NCBI GenBank assembly: GCA_023379465.1
Contig: JAMCTM010000021.1
Coordinates: 1 to 6,349, forward strand
Length of the DNA stretch: 6,349 bases
Reading direction: 5' to 3'
DNA from: Patescibacteria group bacterium
GTDB taxonomy: Bacteria; Patescibacteria; Microgenomatia; Levybacterales; UBA12049
The notes below the pieces were generated by a model. It searched no databases. It had not been told where the DNA came from and saw only the letters and a list, made by a program, of their open reading frames with translations. Of the stretch, positions 1 through 6,349 are shown one piece after another. Made by a program: the position numbers and the translations under genes. Positions within the stretch are counted from its first letter, which is position 1; every line of letters begins with the position of its first letter.

Positions 1-1
1 A

Positions 2-805
2 TCAAAATGAAAGATAAAAAATGAGTATAGAGTATAAAGTATAAAGTATAAAGTGTGCTTTTGTAAGCAAAAAAAGAGTCAACAAAATTATTACCAAAAG
101 ATAGCGAATGAGTAAGATAATAACCTTAGGTCTTATGATTTTTGCCTCCGAGTCTCCCAACGCGAATCTGAAAAACATTATAAAGGACTCTCTTAAATTT
201 TTTCTTGGCAGCCAATAGGCAATGGCAGACTTTTGGAAAACAATTACTGCGCCGATTTTCTTAAGTCTCTTGGCAAAAACATAGTCCTCGTTATGAGAAT
301 ACTCCTCGGGAAATCCTCCTGCTTTTTGCCAAATTGATTTACGAAAAGCAATAGAACGAGTGGCAGGCAGAAAATTTTTAGGATCAACCCTATCTTCCAT
401 TACCAATGTATAGGGAACCAAACATCTTTGGAAGACATTTTTAGGTAAACTTCTATAGTATCCCGCGACAACATCTACTTTTGAATCAAAAAATGGTTCG
501 ATTATATTTTTTACCCAATTTGTATCTAAAATACAACCGGCATCTGAACAAATAATAATATCCCCAGTTGCTTTTCTAATCGCTTCATTTCTCCCCACCG
601 CCCTATTTCCCGGTTTAATAATCAATTTAATCTCTGGGCTTTTTAGTTCTTTATTTGAAATTACCGATGTGGTAGCATCGGTTGATCCTCCGTCAACAAT
701 AACGACCTCATCCGGTAATCTCGACTGGTTAAACAGCGATTTTAAAAAGAGATCAATTGTCCTCTCCTCATTTAAAACAGTTGTAATAAAAGAAACCTTC
801 TCCAT
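2..805 (-). CDS. GT2-family glycosyltransferase with C-terminal membrane segments
   Basis: A 267-residue GT-A fold glycosyltransferase of family 2, expected to move a sugar from an activated donor onto a lipid-linked or envelope acceptor at the cytoplasmic face of the membrane. Visible features: the N-terminal strand and nucleotide-binding start (SFITTVLNEERTI, residues 5-17), VVIVDGGSTDAT (34-45), a SDAG motif at 87-90 where the metal-binding DxD normally sits, and HNED (171-174), whose ED is the usual catalytic-base motif. Residues about 228-265 form one or two hydrophobic segments, so the protein is probably membrane-bound. It is the last visible gene of the minus-strand operon, starting 31 bp after the GT4 stop. 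GGGG four bases before the ATG is only a weak ribosome site. The stop is TGA. A 7-bp tandem repeat encodes much of the C-terminus. Donor and acceptor cannot be read from the sequence. Confidence 0.93.
   Translation of the reverse strand: MEKVSFITTVLNEERTIDLFLKSLFNQSRLPDEVVIVDGGSTDATTSVISNKELKSPEIKLIIKPGNRAVGRNEAIRKATGDIIICSDAGCILDTNWVKNIIEPFFDSKVDVVAGYYRSLPKNVFQRCLVPYTLVMEDRVDPKNFLPATRSIAFRKSIWQKAGGFPEEYSHNEDYVFAKRLKKIGAVIVFQKSAIAYWLPRKNLRESFIMFFRFALGDSEAKIIRPKVIILLIRYLLVIILLTLFLLTKAHFILYTLYSILIFYLSF
24..55. repeat. 7-bp tandem repeat in the 3' end of the GT2 gene
   Basis: About four and a half copies of a heptamer: AGTATAG at 24-30, then AGTATAA at 31-37, 38-44 and 45-51, then a partial copy. 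On the coding strand the unit reads TTATACT. Because 7 is not a multiple of 3, successive copies are read in different frames, giving the LYTLYSIL-type hydrophobic residues around 251-261. Confidence 0.85.
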
Positions 806-836
806 ATGACCCCGTAAACATGAGCCCGGAGTAGCG

Positions 837-1922
837 CTATTTTGAAACCCCAGAATGTCTCCACAGTCTCAGATATAAATCAACCACATTATCCCATGTC
901 TGACCCTTAACCCATTCAAATCCCTGACTGATTTTCGGCTCGATTTTTTTCTTATGATTTAAATCATAGACTATCTGCTCTGCTAATTTTTGAGCATCAT
1001 CTTTGATAATTATAAACTTTGCAAATGGCGCCGTTTCTAAATAATCCTTCTTAAGAGAATTATTATAAACAGCAAAAACAGGTTTTTTATAAGCTAACGC
1101 CTCAAGGATCGAAAGATAAGAAGAGGCAAAAACAATATCAGCGTTTTCGATATATTCCGAAACCCCCTCAACAAATCCCAATACTCTCCCATATTGTGCG
1201 ACACGAAAGTGCAGAGAACCATCACCCACTGCCTCGAACTCAAAATTAATTTTCTTAGTCTTAAGCAGTCTAAGCGTCTTAAGATAAACGGAAACTCCGG
1301 TATCTTCTTCGAGTCTTCCGACAAAAACTATTTTGTATTTTGAATTTTGTGTCTTGAATTTATTTTGAATTTTGAATTTGGGATTTGGAATTTCAACGCC
1401 ACCGTAAGTAATGTAATCCGATTTTGTCCCGTACCATTTCTTAATATAATTACCCACGCAAATATTCCCCCATGAAAGCTTCTCGCTTATCTTTCTAATA
1501 AGAACTGCTTTCTTGGCAGGAGGGAAAACAGTTTCGTATCCATGAAACGTAGTAAAAATGGGCTTTTTAGGATAAAGAAGTCTAAAAGGCAGATACCAGA
1601 AAAAAACATCATGACAATGAACAAGATCCGCGTCCTTAAAGAACTTGCGTTTTAACCACAACTGTCTCCAAATCCTAAACTTTTTGAACCAATCCTGGCC
1701 ACCAACGGAAATTCTGTAAACTTCTAATCCATTGTAATTTTCTGCCGTCTTAGCACTTGGTGCTTCCAACTGATATACTAATATATTAGCGTTTGACAAC
1801 TCTTCTGTTACAACAATCACTCTATGTCCTCTGCCTACCAGTCGCCTACCCACTTCCAGAATATGCTTCTCCACCCCGCCAACATGCGGATAAAAAAGAC
1901 GAGTGAAAAAAATAACGGTCAT
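837..1922 (-). CDS. GT4-family (GT-B fold) glycosyltransferase
   Basis: A 361-residue glycosyltransferase of family 4, a retaining GT-B enzyme that probably adds a sugar from a nucleotide-sugar donor to a surface glycan precursor in the cytoplasm. The N-terminal acceptor domain shows FYPHVGGVEKHILEVGRRL (10-28), HCHD (102-105) and HGYE (127-130). The C-terminal donor domain begins at IVFVGRLEEDTGV (198-210) and has the SSYLSILEALAYKKPVFAV block (267-285). In that block the second Glu of the family's EX7E motif is present (E274), but the position seven residues upstream is Ala266, so the first Glu is missing or displaced. Residues 178-198, between the two domains, are encoded by a heptameric repeat. 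The ATG overlaps the methyltransferase stop (ATGA) and has no Shine-Dalgarno, which suggests translational coupling. Stop is TAG. The specific sugar is unknown. Confidence 0.92.
   Translation of the reverse strand: MTVIFFTRLFYPHVGGVEKHILEVGRRLVGRGHRVIVVTEELSNANILVYQLEAPSAKTAENYNGLEVYRISVGGQDWFKKFRIWRQLWLKRKFFKDADLVHCHDVFFWYLPFRLLYPKKPIFTTFHGYETVFPPAKKAVLIRKISEKLSWGNICVGNYIKKWYGTKSDYITYGGVEIPNPKFKIQNKFKTQNSKYKIVFVGRLEEDTGVSVYLKTLRLLKTKKINFEFEAVGDGSLHFRVAQYGRVLGFVEGVSEYIENADIVFASSYLSILEALAYKKPVFAVYNNSLKKDYLETAPFAKFIIIKDDAQKLAEQIVYDLNHKKKIEPKISQGFEWVKGQTWDNVVDLYLRLWRHSGVSK
1329..1391. repeat. Degenerate 7-bp repeat encoding the GT4 interdomain linker
   Basis: Nine heptamers, 63 bp, read on the minus strand. 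They resemble ATTCAAA or CAAAATT/A: ATTCCAA, ATCCCAA, ATTCAAA, ATTCAAA, ATAAATT, CAAGACA, CAAAATT, CAAAATA, CAAAATA. The length is exactly 21 codons, so the frame is kept. It encodes a Lys/Asn/Gln/Phe-rich stretch (residues 178-198) just before the VGRL strand that opens the donor domain. Confidence 0.8.
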
Positions 1923-2659
1923 GGTTTTCTAGCAACTACAAAATTATTAGATTCTCCAAATAAAAAAAGTGATATCAAGTCGATAAATGACACCACATCG
2001 GATATAAAAAACTTTATGAATCTTATAGATTTTCCTGCTACTGGGTTCAAAAATAAAAAATTTCTCAATATACCTTCTGTTTTCTTTACTTTTAGAATTT
2101 CAAGTCCTGTCTTTTTACAGATTTGGACAATTTCTTGTTCTGAGTAACGCCTAAGATGCCCTACTCTCTTATCGAATTCTTTAGCCATACCCATTTTATA
2201 AAGTGGTGCGTTTTTTGAAGGAACAGATATTACAAGAACTCCTTTATCTGTAAGCATTTGATGAATTTTTATTAAAGCAAGCTCATCTTCTGCAATATGC
2301 TCTAATACTTCATTACAAATAATCAGGTCAAATTTACTTCTAGGAACTTCTCTAGGAAAATTCATCCTAGCAAACTCTATATTTTTAAAATGTAGATATT
2401 CCGCACTTTGTCTACAGGAACTAATTGATTTTTTCGAAACATCAATTCCAAAAACCTTCTTCCCTTTACTAGCCAGGTAAAGAGATAGAACTCCAGCTCC
2501 GCAACCAATATCCAATACTTTTGTTCTCCCCGGTAAATATTCATTTAATATTCCCAAAATATCCCTGTACGTAAAATTACTTGAATCAATTACACGTTTT
2601 TGCATTAACGTAGAAGCATGAAAGGAATCATAATTAACGCTAGATGCATCAAACGACAT
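1919..2659 (-). CDS. Class I SAM-dependent methyltransferase
   Basis: A 246-residue Rossmann-fold methyltransferase of the Methyltransf_11/23 (UbiG-like) type, which transfers a methyl group from S-adenosylmethionine. Visible motifs: motif I VLDIGCGAG (48-56), the acidic strand end GIDVS (71-75) that would bind the SAM ribose, FDLIICNEVLEHI (110-122) with the NEVLEH signature, and VLVISVPSKN (141-150). A hydrophobic C-terminal segment (about 211-235) may touch the membrane. As first gene of an operon with two glycosyltransferases it probably methylates a surface sugar or lipid-linked intermediate; this is inferred from context, and a quinone or small-molecule substrate is not excluded. The ATG at 2659 has no Shine-Dalgarno and sits at the predicted transcription start. 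Sampled 60-bp rows are AT-rich (two at 27% GC, one at 43%). Stop is TGA, overlapping the next ATG. Confidence 0.93.
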   Translation of the reverse strand: MSFDASSVNYDSFHASTLMQKRVIDSSNFTYRDILGILNEYLPGRTKVLDIGCGAGVLSLYLASKGKKVFGIDVSKKSISSCRQSAEYLHFKNIEFARMNFPREVPRSKFDLIICNEVLEHIAEDELALIKIHQMLTDKGVLVISVPSKNAPLYKMGMAKEFDKRVGHLRRYSEQEIVQICKKTGLEILKVKKTEGILRNFLFLNPVAGKSIRFIKFFISDVVSFIDLISLFLFGESNNFVVARKP

Positions 2660-2665
2660 ATCAAC

Positions 2666-2694
2666 ATTTTAACATTGCTATAATATATTGACAA
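2666..2694 (-). promoter_or_regulatory. Sigma-70-type promoter for the methyltransferase operon
   Basis: On the minus strand, TTGTCA (2694-2689), a 17-bp spacer, then TAAAAT (2671-2666) preceded by TGT, an extended -10. Six bases separate the -10 from the ATG at 2659, so transcription should start at or next to the start codon, giving a leaderless mRNA. Its -35 shares TTGACAA with the opposing promoter. Confidence 0.7.
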
Positions 2695-2716
2695 GGCTAA
2701 AATTATAAACTATATT
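2688..2716 (+). promoter_or_regulatory. Sigma-70-type promoter for the surface protein gene
   Basis: TTGACA (2688-2693), a 17-bp spacer, then TATATT (2711-2716). The expected start is near 2723, about four bases before the GTG at 2727, so the transcript would be nearly leaderless. The -35 lies on the same bases as the -35 of the minus-strand operon promoter. Confidence 0.7.
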
Positions 2717-2726
2717 CTTACTTAAG

Positions 2727-5700
2727 GTGAGAAAACTGACTGTTTTAAAAATTTTCATTTTTTTAGTTTTCTTCTTTCTTTTCTTATCGTATTTACCCAT
2801 TAATATACTCGCTTCTACTAAAACCTTCCAAGACAACTTTAATGATGGTAATTACGATGGATGGGTAGTCCTACGAAATCCTTGTTATTATAATGGTGCT
2901 CCTGCAAAATGGGAAGTCGTAAATGGCAAACTTGGAATAAAGATAAATGGAGGTAGTTGTGTAACAGAAATAATGCCTGACGATACCCTATGGAACAATT
3001 TAGGTGATGATTATTCAGTTCAATTTGATATGACATTAGGAAACGGTACAACGAATGAAGCAGTAGGTGGCACAGATCATAACTTCGCATTTAGATATAG
3101 AGATTCTGGACATTGGTACGATATCCATCTACAGTCTCCTAATGTCTTAGGACTTCAACGAATATCAGATACAGGAATGTATACAAATAATTCTGTGCTG
3201 GGCAACTTTAAGAATGGACAGACCATTCACTTCAAAATAGAGGTTACGAAAGAACATATTCAAATTTTTGCTGGTACACCACCTCAGTTATTATTAGATT
3301 TTTCTGATCCAGGACTCGGAAAACAATCAAGTGGTAGAATAGCTCTTCAAGCTAGTGCCGGAGGAAATCCTGTCTCCGAGACCTGGTTTGATAATGTGGT
3401 GGTAACTGCGATTGAGCCGCCGCTTAATGTTCCGCTTCTAAAACAAACTGATCCTATCTGGGGCGGAAAAGAATATGACACGGCAAGTTCCTGGGTAAAT
3501 GCACCCAATATCACCATTGGCGACTGGGGCTGTGCTCTAACTTCGACGGTAATGGTCTTAAATTATTACGGAATTAACAAACTTACAGATGGCACTGGAC
3601 TTGATCCGGGCAGTCTTAATACCTGGCTTAAGAGCCAACCCGATGGCTATATAGGCAGTGGTTTTTTAAATTGGCTGGCTATATCTCGCCTTTCTTATTT
3701 GGCAAAACCGCAAAACCCCGCCTTTTCCCACGACGGCCTCGAATATCGAAAAGTCAATACAGAAGACAAAACTCAATTAACCACCGATATCACGAATCAA
3801 CAGCCCGACATCCTGGAAGAGCCGGGTCATTTCATTGTGGCCAAGGGCATCGACGGCGACACTTTTGACATCAACGATCCCTATTACGACAGGACCCTCT
3901 TAAACGACTACGGCAATACCTTTTCCTCGTTGGGCCGCTACATCGCCTCTGATACCAATCTTTCCTATATCATGCTGACAGTTGATCCCAATGTGCAATT
4001 GCTCCTGACCGATCCAAGCAGTAAGGAAAGCGGCAATGACACGACTGCCACATTCTCGCAAATCCCCAATGCCTCTTATTACGTTCAATCCGGCATAGTC
4101 AATCCAATAAACGGCGACACTTCACCTCCATCTAGAATTTTCCTCTTGCCGACCCCCGAAGATGGTTCTTATTCCATCTCCATTGCCACTGCCAGTGCTA
4201 CTCCCCAAAATTTTGCTCTCAAAATTTATGAATACAATACCCTGGGGGAACCAACGATCAGTTCTTTTTCCGCGGTTGCTAAAAAAGACAAACCCGGATC
4301 CTACCAATTTATTTATTCCCAGGGAGCGCCCAATCAGGAAGAACCCCTTGATAATACCAAACCAAAAATTATAAGTGCCAAAACTTTAGATACCAACGGC
4401 AATGGTAAAATTGATGTCATCCAGGCAACTTTTTCCAAAGATCTATACGGTCCATCGGTAACCAAAAATGATTTTCAAATAGATGGGTACAGCGTAACAA
4501 GCGTCAAAGAAGAGAATGGCCTAGTTACCATCAACCTCTTGGAAAGTGATGGAACCGATACCGGCAAAACCCCAACCATAACTATGAACCAAAACTCGGT
4601 GGAAGATTTCGCCAACGGGAATTGGAATGATAGTCAAAGCCTAACCTCCGATGACGATGCCCCTCCTCTTGCCCCTACCGTTAATATTCCGGGAGATGAT
4701 TACTTAGCTCCGCAAACAGTCAGCCTGACAGATTTTCAACTTCCGAATTCAGTAAGTATTTACTACACTATTAATGGGTCAGATCCTGCCACGTCTTCCT
4801 CGAAAACTCTTTTTGCCAGTCCTATTATAATTGCGAACGACCTAATCCTAAAGGCAATTGCCGTTGATAGCGCCGGCAATAAAAGCAGTATTTTAAACCA
4901 AGATTACAGGATTGCGCCGACAATTGATATTTCTTCTTTGCGAACAACTGTAGGCTCCGACAACAGGTCTTTTACTATCAACTGGACAACACAGCAAAAA
5001 GCCCTCGGCAGGGTAATTTTTGATGAAAATAGCCACGCAAAGATAAACCATTTGGCAACTGATCCGTTTGGAGGAAAGTTTGGCTACAAAAACACAACAG
5101 ATGAAGAAATAACCAAAACAAAAAATCATTCCATGCTGATTTCCGGCCTTTCACCCGAAAGAATCTATTACTACAGGATTATAGCAAGGGCTTCGCCGGA
5201 GCAGATTAGCGATGAACAAAGCATTACCCTGCCGGGCAGTTCAACTTCTTCAAGTCCGTCAACTTCGCCATCGGCAAGCCCTCCGTCAAATTCTTCCCCT
5301 GTCTGCAATGACCAAAAACCACAAGGTGCGCCAAAACTTATCAATGCCTTTCCCGGACTAAACACCGTTACTTTAATCTGGAGTAAGGCAGCAGATCCTA
5401 TCTCATATTATCTTGTTGCTTACGGAATAGAACCAAATAAACCCCTATATGGAAATCCGAATGTCGGAGATGAAAATACAACAAGTTTTGTAGTTGAAAA
5501 TCTGTCAGGCGGACAAACTTATTATTTTAAAGTTCGCGCCGGCAATGGATGCGCTCCTGGTGATTTTTCGCCTGAAATGGCCACTGCTCCTTTTGGATTT
5601 CGAGAGCAAGGAGCGGCAACCGGCTTTGCGAAAGGAGTTCTCGGATCAAAAACACAGGTGAAACAGGCAAATTCACAAAGCAATCTGCCTTCGCCAAGAG

Positions 5701-5837
5701 GATTAGGGACGGCTCCGTCTTCGCCTGTCTTATCCGCCAGACAGCAAACATTCGTAAAAATTGCGGCTTTGCTTATTTTACTTGGCTTTTCTGCAAGTCT
5801 TTATCTAAAAAGGAAAATTAGACTGATAAAGAACTAA
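2727..5837 (+). CDS. Surface-anchored multidomain protein with LamG-like and C39-like peptidase domains
   Basis: A 1036-residue exported protein. Order: signal peptide (1-30: RK, long hydrophobic run, cleavage probably near ILAS); concanavalin/LamG-DUF1080-like beta-sandwich (about 31-230, starting FQDNFNDGNYDGW); C39-like peptidase domain (about 234-425) with candidate nucleophile Cys269 in GDWGCALTS, His368 in PGHFIVAKG and Asp384 in INDPYY; Ig-like region (about 426-540); a module with a calcium-loop-like DTNGNGKID (555-563); chitobiase C-terminal-like domain (about 650-727, YYTINGSDPATSS); two FnIII-like domains (about 731-836 and 867-955) around a Ser/Pro linker (837-858); then a C-terminal membrane helix (about 1009-1027) with a KRKIRLIKN tail. 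Topology is therefore outside with a cytoplasmic tail. It probably binds glycans and cleaves or remodels a surface peptide; substrate unknown. GTG is the only plausible start: the frame upstream closes at TAA 2706-2708, and no Shine-Dalgarno is visible. Confidence 0.9.
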   Translation: MRKLTVLKIFIFLVFFFLFLSYLPINILASTKTFQDNFNDGNYDGWVVLRNPCYYNGAPAKWEVVNGKLGIKINGGSCVTEIMPDDTLWNNLGDDYSVQFDMTLGNGTTNEAVGGTDHNFAFRYRDSGHWYDIHLQSPNVLGLQRISDTGMYTNNSVLGNFKNGQTIHFKIEVTKEHIQIFAGTPPQLLLDFSDPGLGKQSSGRIALQASAGGNPVSETWFDNVVVTAIEPPLNVPLLKQTDPIWGGKEYDTASSWVNAPNITIGDWGCALTSTVMVLNYYGINKLTDGTGLDPGSLNTWLKSQPDGYIGSGFLNWLAISRLSYLAKPQNPAFSHDGLEYRKVNTEDKTQLTTDITNQQPDILEEPGHFIVAKGIDGDTFDINDPYYDRTLLNDYGNTFSSLGRYIASDTNLSYIMLTVDPNVQLLLTDPSSKESGNDTTATFSQIPNASYYVQSGIVNPINGDTSPPSRIFLLPTPEDGSYSISIATASATPQNFALKIYEYNTLGEPTISSFSAVAKKDKPGSYQFIYSQGAPNQEEPLDNTKPKIISAKTLDTNGNGKIDVIQATFSKDLYGPSVTKNDFQIDGYSVTSVKEENGLVTINLLESDGTDTGKTPTITMNQNSVEDFANGNWNDSQSLTSDDDAPPLAPTVNIPGDDYLAPQTVSLTDFQLPNSVSIYYTINGSDPATSSSKTLFASPIIIANDLILKAIAVDSAGNKSSILNQDYRIAPTIDISSLRTTVGSDNRSFTINWTTQQKALGRVIFDENSHAKINHLATDPFGGKFGYKNTTDEEITKTKNHSMLISGLSPERIYYYRIIARASPEQISDEQSITLPGSSTSSSPSTSPSASPPSNSSPVCNDQKPQGAPKLINAFPGLNTVTLIWSKAADPISYYLVAYGIEPNKPLYGNPNVGDENTTSFVVENLSGGQTYYFKVRAGNGCAPGDFSPEMATAPFGFREQGAATGFAKGVLGSKTQVKQANSQSNLPSPRGLGTAPSSPVLSARQQTFVKIAALLILLGFSASLYLKRKIRLIKN

Positions 5838-5875
5838 CCACTGACTTTTTACCACCCGCGCCTGCCATGGTCTTG
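5838..5875. other. Short convergent gap without a recognisable terminator
   Basis: This 38-bp gap separates the 3' end of the surface protein gene from the 3' end of the tRNA. It contains a T5 run (about 5846-5850) and a CCATGG palindrome, but no GC-rich hairpin followed by a T-run on either strand, so I cannot assign an intrinsic terminator. Confidence 0.5.
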
Positions 5876-5947
5876 TGAGCCCGGATGGACTTGAACCATC
5901 GACCTTTCGGATGTGAACCGAACGCTCTGCCGCTGAGCCACGGGCTC
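5876..5947 (-). tRNA. tRNA-Val (CAC anticodon)
   Basis: A full 72-nt cloverleaf on the minus strand. The acceptor stem GAGCCCG/CGGGCTC is a perfect 7 bp. The D arm is GCTC/GAGC around AGCGGCA. The anticodon stem TTCGG/CCGAA encloses TTCACAT, placing anticodon CAC at 5915-5913, which reads valine GTG. The variable loop is 5 nt and the T arm is GATGG/CCATC around TTCAAGT. The discriminator is A, as expected for tRNA-Val. CCA is not encoded (CAA follows the discriminator), so it must be added by a nucleotidyltransferase. It faces the surface protein gene and diverges from the signal peptidase gene. Confidence 0.95.
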
Positions 5948-5956
5948 TTCAAATTT

Positions 5957-5985
5957 ATATTAACATAAAAACCTATGATTGACAA
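5957..5985 (-). promoter_or_regulatory. Sigma-70-type promoter for tRNA-Val
   Basis: On the minus strand, TTGTCA (5985-5980), a 17-bp spacer, then TAATAT (5962-5957) preceded by TGT, an extended -10. The first tRNA base is 10 bases beyond the -10, leaving a 5' leader of only about 2-4 nt. The architecture closely copies the methyltransferase promoter. Confidence 0.72.
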
Positions 5986-6007
5986 AGGAGGCTAATTCGG
6001 AGAAAAT
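5979..6007 (+). promoter_or_regulatory. Possible promoter for the signal peptidase gene
   Basis: TTGACA (5979-5984), a 17-bp spacer, then GAAAAT (6002-6007), a 4-of-6 match to the -10 consensus. The ATG at 6014 lies six bases further on, the same geometry as the methyltransferase promoter, implying a leaderless mRNA. The alternative is an upstream start using GGAG at 5999-6002 as ribosome site, since the -10 here is weak. Confidence 0.45.
5999..6002 (+). promoter_or_regulatory. Possible Shine-Dalgarno GGAG for signal peptidase
   Basis: GGAG ends 11 bases before the ATG at 6014, slightly long but usable. It competes with the leaderless model, because the predicted start at about 6014 would leave it untranscribed. 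A stronger AAAGGAGG at about 5984-5991 is too far upstream (22 bases) to serve this start. Confidence 0.35.
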
Positions 6008-6013
6008 ATATAA

Positions 6014-6349
6014 ATGGCCATTATTCGAAAAATCTACGCTTTTCTAATAGACACTGTTCAAACATTTCTTCTTGCCGCGTCGGTCTTCTTGGTAATCTAC
6101 ATATTTTTATTTCGTCCATTCGAAGTAGACGGGCTATCCATGTTTCCAACATTCCATAACGGAGACTATGTGTTAACCAACCTAATTACCCTTAAACTGG
6201 GAAACATAAAAAGAGGAGATGTTGTCGTTTTTGTGGCTCCGCCTGACCATCAAAAAGATTTCATAAAACGGATAATAGGACTTCCCGGGGACACGATAAT
6301 GCTTAAAAACGGTAATGTATATTTAAATAAGATCGGAAGAGCACACGTC
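6014..6349 (+). CDS. lepB: Signal peptidase I, 5' part only
   Basis: The first 112 codons of a type I signal peptidase, which cleaves signal peptides from exported proteins on the outer face of the cytoplasmic membrane. One N-terminal membrane segment (about residues 16-34) is followed by the box B motif GLSMFPTFHNGDYV (40-53) with nucleophile Ser42, a RGDVVVF strand (67-73), and the box D motif KRIIGLPGDTI (85-95) with general base Lys85. The Ser/Lys dyad is intact, so the visible part looks functional. The start is fixed because TAA at 6011-6013 lies directly before the ATG. The gene is truncated by the contig end. Its last six codons (6332-6349, IGRAHV) come from adapter sequence, so genuine coding ends at about 6329. 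It may process the surface protein's signal peptide, as it would all secreted proteins. Confidence 0.93.
   Translation, partial: MAIIRKIYAFLIDTVQTFLLAASVFLVIYIFLFRPFEVDGLSMFPTFHNGDYVLTNLITLKLGNIKRGDVVVFVAPPDHQKDFIKRIIGLPGDTIMLKNGNVYLNKIGRAHV
6330..6349 (+). other. Illumina TruSeq adapter contamination at the contig end
   Basis: The final 20 bases begin AGATCGGAAGAGC and continue exactly as the TruSeq Read 1 3' adapter. An exact 20-base match at the very end of the contig is best explained by untrimmed reads. These bases should be masked, and the true sequence ends at about 6329. Confidence 0.96.

Follow-up and report, generated by a model that had tools for sequence, protein, structure and literature searches.

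A candidate two-way promoter built on one shared -35 element between methyltransferase and surface-protein genes of a Patescibacteria genome

Two described kinds of promoter arrangement are close to the one reported here. In the shared -10 bidirectional promoters of Warman, Grainger and colleagues, two sigma70 promoters that face opposite ways use a single near-symmetric core element, the polymerase chooses the orientation and the arrangement is widespread (PMC12825309, PMC10268837). Members of the class have, by definition, a distance of 7-25 bp between start sites, most commonly 18 bp (PMC10268837). According to the portion of the work drawn on here, weakening one direction of five such Escherichia coli promoters barely affects the other, and competition is found mainly when one direction is boosted (PMC12825309). 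For the Pc/Pr promoters of pLS20, the part of the report used here proposes that the -10 of each promoter falls on the -35 of its partner, and describes a switch in which a dedicated regulator, Rco, takes part (PMC4207663). Here we describe a 6349-bp stretch of DNA from a Patescibacteria group bacterium (contig JAMCTM010000021.1, positions 1-6349; hereafter the window), in which a gene for an S-adenosylmethionine (SAM)-dependent methyltransferase and a gene for a large putative surface protein diverge from 67 bp of DNA, measured from the ATG of the former to the GTG of the latter. A single heptamer, TTGACAA, is placed as the -35 element of both genes (Table 1).

Compared with these published descriptions, so far as they are drawn on here, the locus resembles the shared -10 promoters in having one core element that is read on both strands, and differs from them in that the common element is the -35 (TTGNCAA) rather than the -10 and that each promoter is aimed at a start codon. 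With 39 bp between its -10 boxes and ~64 bp between its predicted transcription starts, it falls outside the 7-25 bp range of that class. As in pLS20 Pc/Pr, the divergent sigma promoters overlap so that one polymerase would bind, here judged from sequence geometry. Unlike in pLS20, however, the shared element is the -35, and Pfam identified no regulator next to 2688-2694, the neighbours being the methyltransferase and the surface protein, so that neither promoter is placed before a regulator gene. The locus is also like bacterial leaderless genes in that a -10 stands directly before the start codon and leaves no room for a leader. We found no report of a shared -35 layout in the literature searched, which consisted of open-licence papers and in which "-35" was unusable as a search term.

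We propose, with a probability of about 0.75, that the 67-bp region is a compact, general, space-saving and constitutive two-way sigma70 promoter. In both directions there is a -35 near TTGACA, a spacer within 16-18 nt and a -10 near TATAAT, as in sigma70-type promoters, and the positions that an earlier note on this DNA had given for the heptamer, the two -10 boxes and the two 17-nt spacers are right to the base. When the window was scanned for the consensus, 25 promoter-like sites were found against 16.1 +/- 3.6 expected. The plus-strand site was the single best of the scan, with 11 of 12 consensus matches, and the minus-strand site (10/12) was the only one with an extended -10 among the six sites at that score. 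The shared -35 arrangement at 2688-2694 differs from chance: scored as a pair (TTGNCAA, 17/17 spacers) it reaches 21/24, while 1000 dinucleotide shuffles of the window gave a shared pair of at least 20/24 in none, at least 19 in one and at least 18 in five. The window has two shared pairs of at least 19, and no shuffle contained two of at least 18 together.

Table 1. Promoter elements and genes of the window (coordinates on the plus strand; minus-strand promoter elements are given in their reading direction).
Feature	Position	Strand	Details
Shared -35 heptamer TTGACAA	2688..2694	both	plus TTGACA 2688-2693; minus TTGTCA 2694-2689
-10 TATATT, surface-protein gene	2711..2716	+	spacer 17; GTG 2727 10 nt further
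Extended -10 TGT-TAAAAT, methyltransferase/glycan genes	2674..2666	-	TGT 2674-2672, TAAAAT 2671-2666; spacer 17; ATG 2659 6 nt further
Second shared -35 TTGACAA	5979..5985	both	tRNA-Val/lepB, one of just two divergent junctions in the window
-10 GAAAAT, lepB	6002..6007	+	spacer 17; ATG 6014 6 nt further
Extended -10 TGT-TAATAT, tRNA-Val	5965..5957	-	spacer 17
Family 2 glycosyltransferase gene	2..805	-	Pfam Glycos_transf_2; stop codon is the first bases of the window
Family 4 glycosyltransferase gene	837..1922	-	Pfam Glyco_transf_4
SAM-dependent methyltransferase gene	1919..2659	-	Pfam Methyltransf_31, 2.6e-24; relatives in Candidatus Levyibacteriota
Large putative surface protein gene	2727..5837	+	1036 aa; C39-like peptidase, CHB_HEX_C, Pur_ac_phosph_N and fn3 domains (Pfam)
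tRNA-Val (CAC)	5875..5947	-	
lepB, signal peptidase I	6014..6325	+	Pfam Peptidase_S26; interrupted by contig end

The layout recurs across the lineage. With the strict pattern ATNNTA-N16-TTGNCAA-N16-TANNAT (17/17 spacers) and the reversed pattern as control, forward counts for the order summed to 81 sites, in 54 of 82 genomes (reversed, 1), and for the phylum to 128 sites, in 76 of 286 genomes that include a few members of that order (reversed, 2); order, class and phylum are here database groupings around genomes G001 or G365. Bacteroidia, the one outside group compared (60 genomes, mostly larger), yielded 3 sites and 3 with the reversed control. Changing the spacers in the 82 order genomes left 6 sites at 18/18 (reversed, 1) and 3 at 13/13 (reversed, 4). 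Gene context was retrieved for 30 of the 81 order-level sites. Both -10 boxes had a gene start within 16 nt in 13 of these loci (12 without tRNA genes), one of the two boxes in 13 and neither in four, while the corresponding shares at 1200 random points were 0.75, 17 and 82%, with at least one side in 17.8%; the random points took open frames only and the real sites tRNA genes as well, a difference that raised one locus from one box to both. Among the genes found there are a class II (D/K/N) aminoacyl-tRNA synthetase gene, a FUR-family gene opposite YibE/F and an RmlD-like gene. A recurrent divergent pair flanks a candidate two-way promoter with a near-symmetric TTGWCAA; one gene encodes a 172-aa protein that matches nothing in Pfam and the other a 140-aa protein in which Pfam recognises a Glucodextran_B domain (one example of each, from L068, was run). 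Judged by eye, both genes of this pair are present in 10 of the 30 loci (L068, L075, L076, L077, L079, L081, L082, L084, L085 and L086) and one of them in two more (L083 and L089).

The second copy in the window, between tRNA-Val and lepB, allowed the arrangement to be followed at orthologous junctions, where it is conserved. There were 78 lepB matches in 74 of the 82 order genomes; 70 of these places were used (30 loci and 40 stretches), L208 and L218 gave no hit on re-placement, and the remaining 68 relatives together with the window made 69 regions. A divergent tRNA-Val(CAC) was found upstream of lepB in 54 of the 69 regions (the intergenic DNA being 5948-6013 in the window), and 48 of these 54 junctions, window included, have an exact TTGACAA, which is absent in six. 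Among the 48, which were picked for TTGACAA so that those seven columns of their profile are invariant by construction, the tRNA-side -10 stands at spacer 17 in 41, the maximum for any other reverse spacer from 10 to 26 being 16 (at spacer 12), and the lepB-side -10 has spacer 17 in 36 and spacer 18 in 11. In the same profile, the lepB -10 is often GANAAT instead of TATAAT. These spacings bear on the idea that a regulator binds TTGNCAA as its operator, in which case the motif would be no -35 and the -10 boxes would be incidental. The palindromic form of the motif and its high conservation at lepB would suit that idea, but the peaks at spacer 17 on both sides argue against it, as do the TTGACA-like -35 elements of 97 putative leaderless promoters of one genome (G002), even though these were chosen for that similarity, and we regard an operator as very improbable. 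In those 97 promoters, the -35 hexamer is followed by A in 49%.

The methyltransferase/surface junction itself was compared in relatives. A methyltransferase at E 1e-30 or better was found in 11 of the 82 order genomes. In three of the corresponding loci (L005, L006 and L012), the heptamer, the extended -10 (TGn-TARAAT) and the 6-nt distance to the methyltransferase start are all kept as in the window, the starts of the two genes are separated by 63, 66 and 64 bp, respectively, and the encoded N-termini of the divergent genes resemble, by eye, that of the window surface protein. The surface-side -10 is weaker in these relatives: TAAACT at spacer 18 in L006, CATGCT at spacer 17 in L005 and TTAAAT at spacer 18 in L012, the last two being recognised by eye where a -10 would be expected and unreported by the promoter scan. 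It might therefore be argued that only the methyltransferase/glycan direction is real and that a near-palindrome in AT-rich DNA produced the surface-side match incidentally. The drift of the surface-side -10 next to a methyltransferase side that is kept in the window and in all three relatives would fit this, as would sharing among intergenic sites that equals the independent expectation (see below). Against this, the surface-side site is the one with the highest score in the window, while the other plus-strand matches in this intergenic DNA (at 2661 and 2675) reach only 9/12, and its -10 stands 10 nt from the GTG start. A one-way promoter is thus unlikely in our judgment, though it deserves some weight.

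Several results weigh against the proposed two-way promoter or limit what can be drawn from it. In L005 and L012, the scan did not recover a surface-side promoter for the shared -35, and a clean shared element was not found in eight of the 11 methyltransferase genomes (L007-L011 and L013-L015), where divergent neighbours or spacings are mostly unlike those of the window. Many of the 81 order-level sites are orthologues, given that a single gene pair accounts for 10 of the 30 loci retrieved and one of its members for two more. TTGACAA is also present in 13 of the 15 lepB regions without a recognised divergent tRNA, and hence its seventh A alone is no mark of sharing; a reverse -10 at spacer 17 occurs in five of these 13, and a tRNA end that ARAGORN did not call is visible by eye in L166, L178 and perhaps L201. 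At the tRNA-Val/lepB junction of G002, the tRNA-side -10 is off-register. At intergenic TTGNCAA sites of five genomes (G002, and G003, G013, G034 and G060 in part, G034 being probably partly masked, with low G+C and low coverage), 17/17 sharing was observed once against 1.27 expected, and sharing there is therefore as frequent as independent placement of the -10 boxes predicts. An order-wide search that left out the palindrome (CAT-N6-ATNNTA-N39-TANNAT-N6-ATG) gave eight sites at the sharing-compatible N39 and seven at the comparison N35, which is 4 bp shorter, with one and two in the reversed controls; this ruled out start spacing as evidence of selection for sharing.

Other tests were made on the five genomes; in these, as in the sharing test above, the distance counts below and the 97 promoters of G002, genes were called by a crude longest-open-reading-frame scheme. 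Across all TTGNCAA sites, 17/17 sharing was observed twice against 0.41 expected. A test on -10 boxes alone showed a mild excess only at gaps of 39-40 (6 of 73 pairs). Of 222 divergent pairs, 60 were near-leaderless, and in nine of these the -35 boxes were offset by exactly -1, while no other offset exceeded two; this is given little weight because the near-palindrome itself favours that offset. Given the independence at intergenic sites and the lack of a spacing preference, the layout looks opportunistic in origin, arising because TTGACAA, a common form of the -35, already reads both ways. Once arisen, it can persist for long, as at tRNA-Val/lepB.

The start codons are close to the -10 boxes. 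In sigma70 geometry, a transcript begins on the start codon or next to it when the -10 ends 6 nt upstream of that codon. The -10 boxes of the methyltransferase gene and lepB end at this distance, within the ~6-7 nt expected of leaderless genes, while the 10 nt of the surface-protein gene make it near-leaderless. In G002 (762 kb), the distance from promoter-like -10 boxes to start codons peaks at 6 nt and is low in an internal-start control, and in the five genomes the counts at 6 nt are 30, 33, 22, 5 and 8 against control means of 1.8, 1.4, 0.4, 0.5 and 0.2. Because the -10 boxes adjoin the start codons, the transcripts from the promoters at 2688-2694 are probably leaderless, and at such distances 67 bp has room for two promoters. 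In the open-licence papers searched, we found no report of leaderless transcription in Patescibacteria.

Taken with the elements, spacing, lineage recurrence and conservation at orthologous junctions described above, a simple mechanism can be proposed. A sigma70-type holoenzyme would take the near-palindrome as its -35 in either orientation, as TTGACA or TTGTCA, and melt one of the two -10 boxes that stand 17 nt out from it. Both RNAs would begin at or a few nt from a start codon, so that no space is spent on a leader. Transcription would thus proceed in both directions from leaderless start sites, with room for one polymerase at a time because the two footprints overlap. To this extent the earlier note, which had proposed two divergent sigma70-type promoters on one -35 that polymerase could occupy in only one direction at a time, is borne out. 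It had gone on to propose that the surface-protein gene and the glycan operon are reciprocally coupled or switched; with the same layout at unrelated gene pairs and no preference for a spacing that permits sharing, that step is not supported. In such a switch, a polymerase committed one way would block the other, and the surface protein and the glycan genes would alternate. The full overlap of the promoters at the -35 and their high scores in the window would suit it, and pLS20 Pc/Pr, in the part of the report used here, offers a precedent for overlapping divergent promoters that form a switch (PMC4207663). However, the layout is also found at housekeeping genes without an evident reason to alternate, the surface-side -10 is poorly conserved in relatives, the dedicated regulator of the precedent has no counterpart flanking 2688-2694, and the E. 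coli shared -10 promoters, as far as they are described in the portion cited, compete little at basal strength (PMC12825309). A reciprocal switch is accordingly quite improbable, and the low competition in E. coli together with the unseen pLS20-type regulator favours a constitutive two-way promoter over it. Since the layout joins tRNA-Val and lepB, joins FUR-family and YibE/F genes and precedes a class II aminoacyl-tRNA synthetase gene, it appears to be generic.

Coupling of the opposite sign could also be envisaged, in which negative supercoils left by each polymerase aid the other promoter and both genes rise together. Supercoil-type coupling is known for other divergent promoters, and the divergent starts are very close here. 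This mechanism, however, works without a shared -35, and we consider it an unlikely account of the locus, albeit one compatible with a constitutive two-way promoter. For the latter, the most likely role is that of an always-on, space-saving layout of opportunistic origin, in which the two directions, at ordinary strength, probably interfere little with each other and the surface-protein and methyltransferase genes are more likely weakly co-expressed than switched.

The window as a whole consists of three minus-strand genes, the plus-strand surface-protein gene, the minus-strand tRNA-Val(CAC) gene and plus-strand lepB (Table 1), and an Rfam scan at gathering thresholds returned the tRNA as its sole match. 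Four bases (1919-1922) are common to the methyltransferase and family 4 glycosyltransferase genes, in the style of a tight operon. In two related loci (L001 and L002), a polysaccharide flippase-like protein, recognised by eye, is encoded downstream of the methyltransferase and glycosyltransferases, and the methyltransferase/glycosyltransferase genes would therefore belong to a surface glycan locus. Both ends of the surface protein were judged by eye to be hydrophobic. Three of the four loci found with relatives of the methyltransferase lie in genomes of Candidatus Levyibacteriota, a phylum of the Patescibacteria group, at 54-59% identity, and the LepB of the window is 87% identical to that of G066, a genome of the same order. 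A phage origin was also considered and set aside, as 1919-3400 has no near match in the phage collection. The final 20 bases of the window, AGATCGGAAGAGCACACGTC (6330-6349), presumably derive from an Illumina adapter, whose sequence they resemble, so that the end of the contig, like the final residues encoded by the lepB frame, is probably an artefact.

Patescibacteria are a large group of mostly uncultured bacteria with small genomes, and to our knowledge little is known about how their transcription is initiated. A broader proposal, which we hold tentatively and rate at somewhat less than even odds, is that Patescibacteria routinely use a class of -35-centred two-way promoters from which leaderless genes run outward from ~65 bp, that selection has kept such promoters order-wide at some junctions, such as tRNA-Val/lepB, and that mutual exclusion ties their two outputs. 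Two-way promoters that arise through symmetry of the -10 are already known, and the present results point to a symmetric -35 as a second way of obtaining them. The resulting promoter grammar, TTGACAA, 17 nt, an extended -10, 6 nt and a start codon, can aid the prediction of start codons and transcription units.

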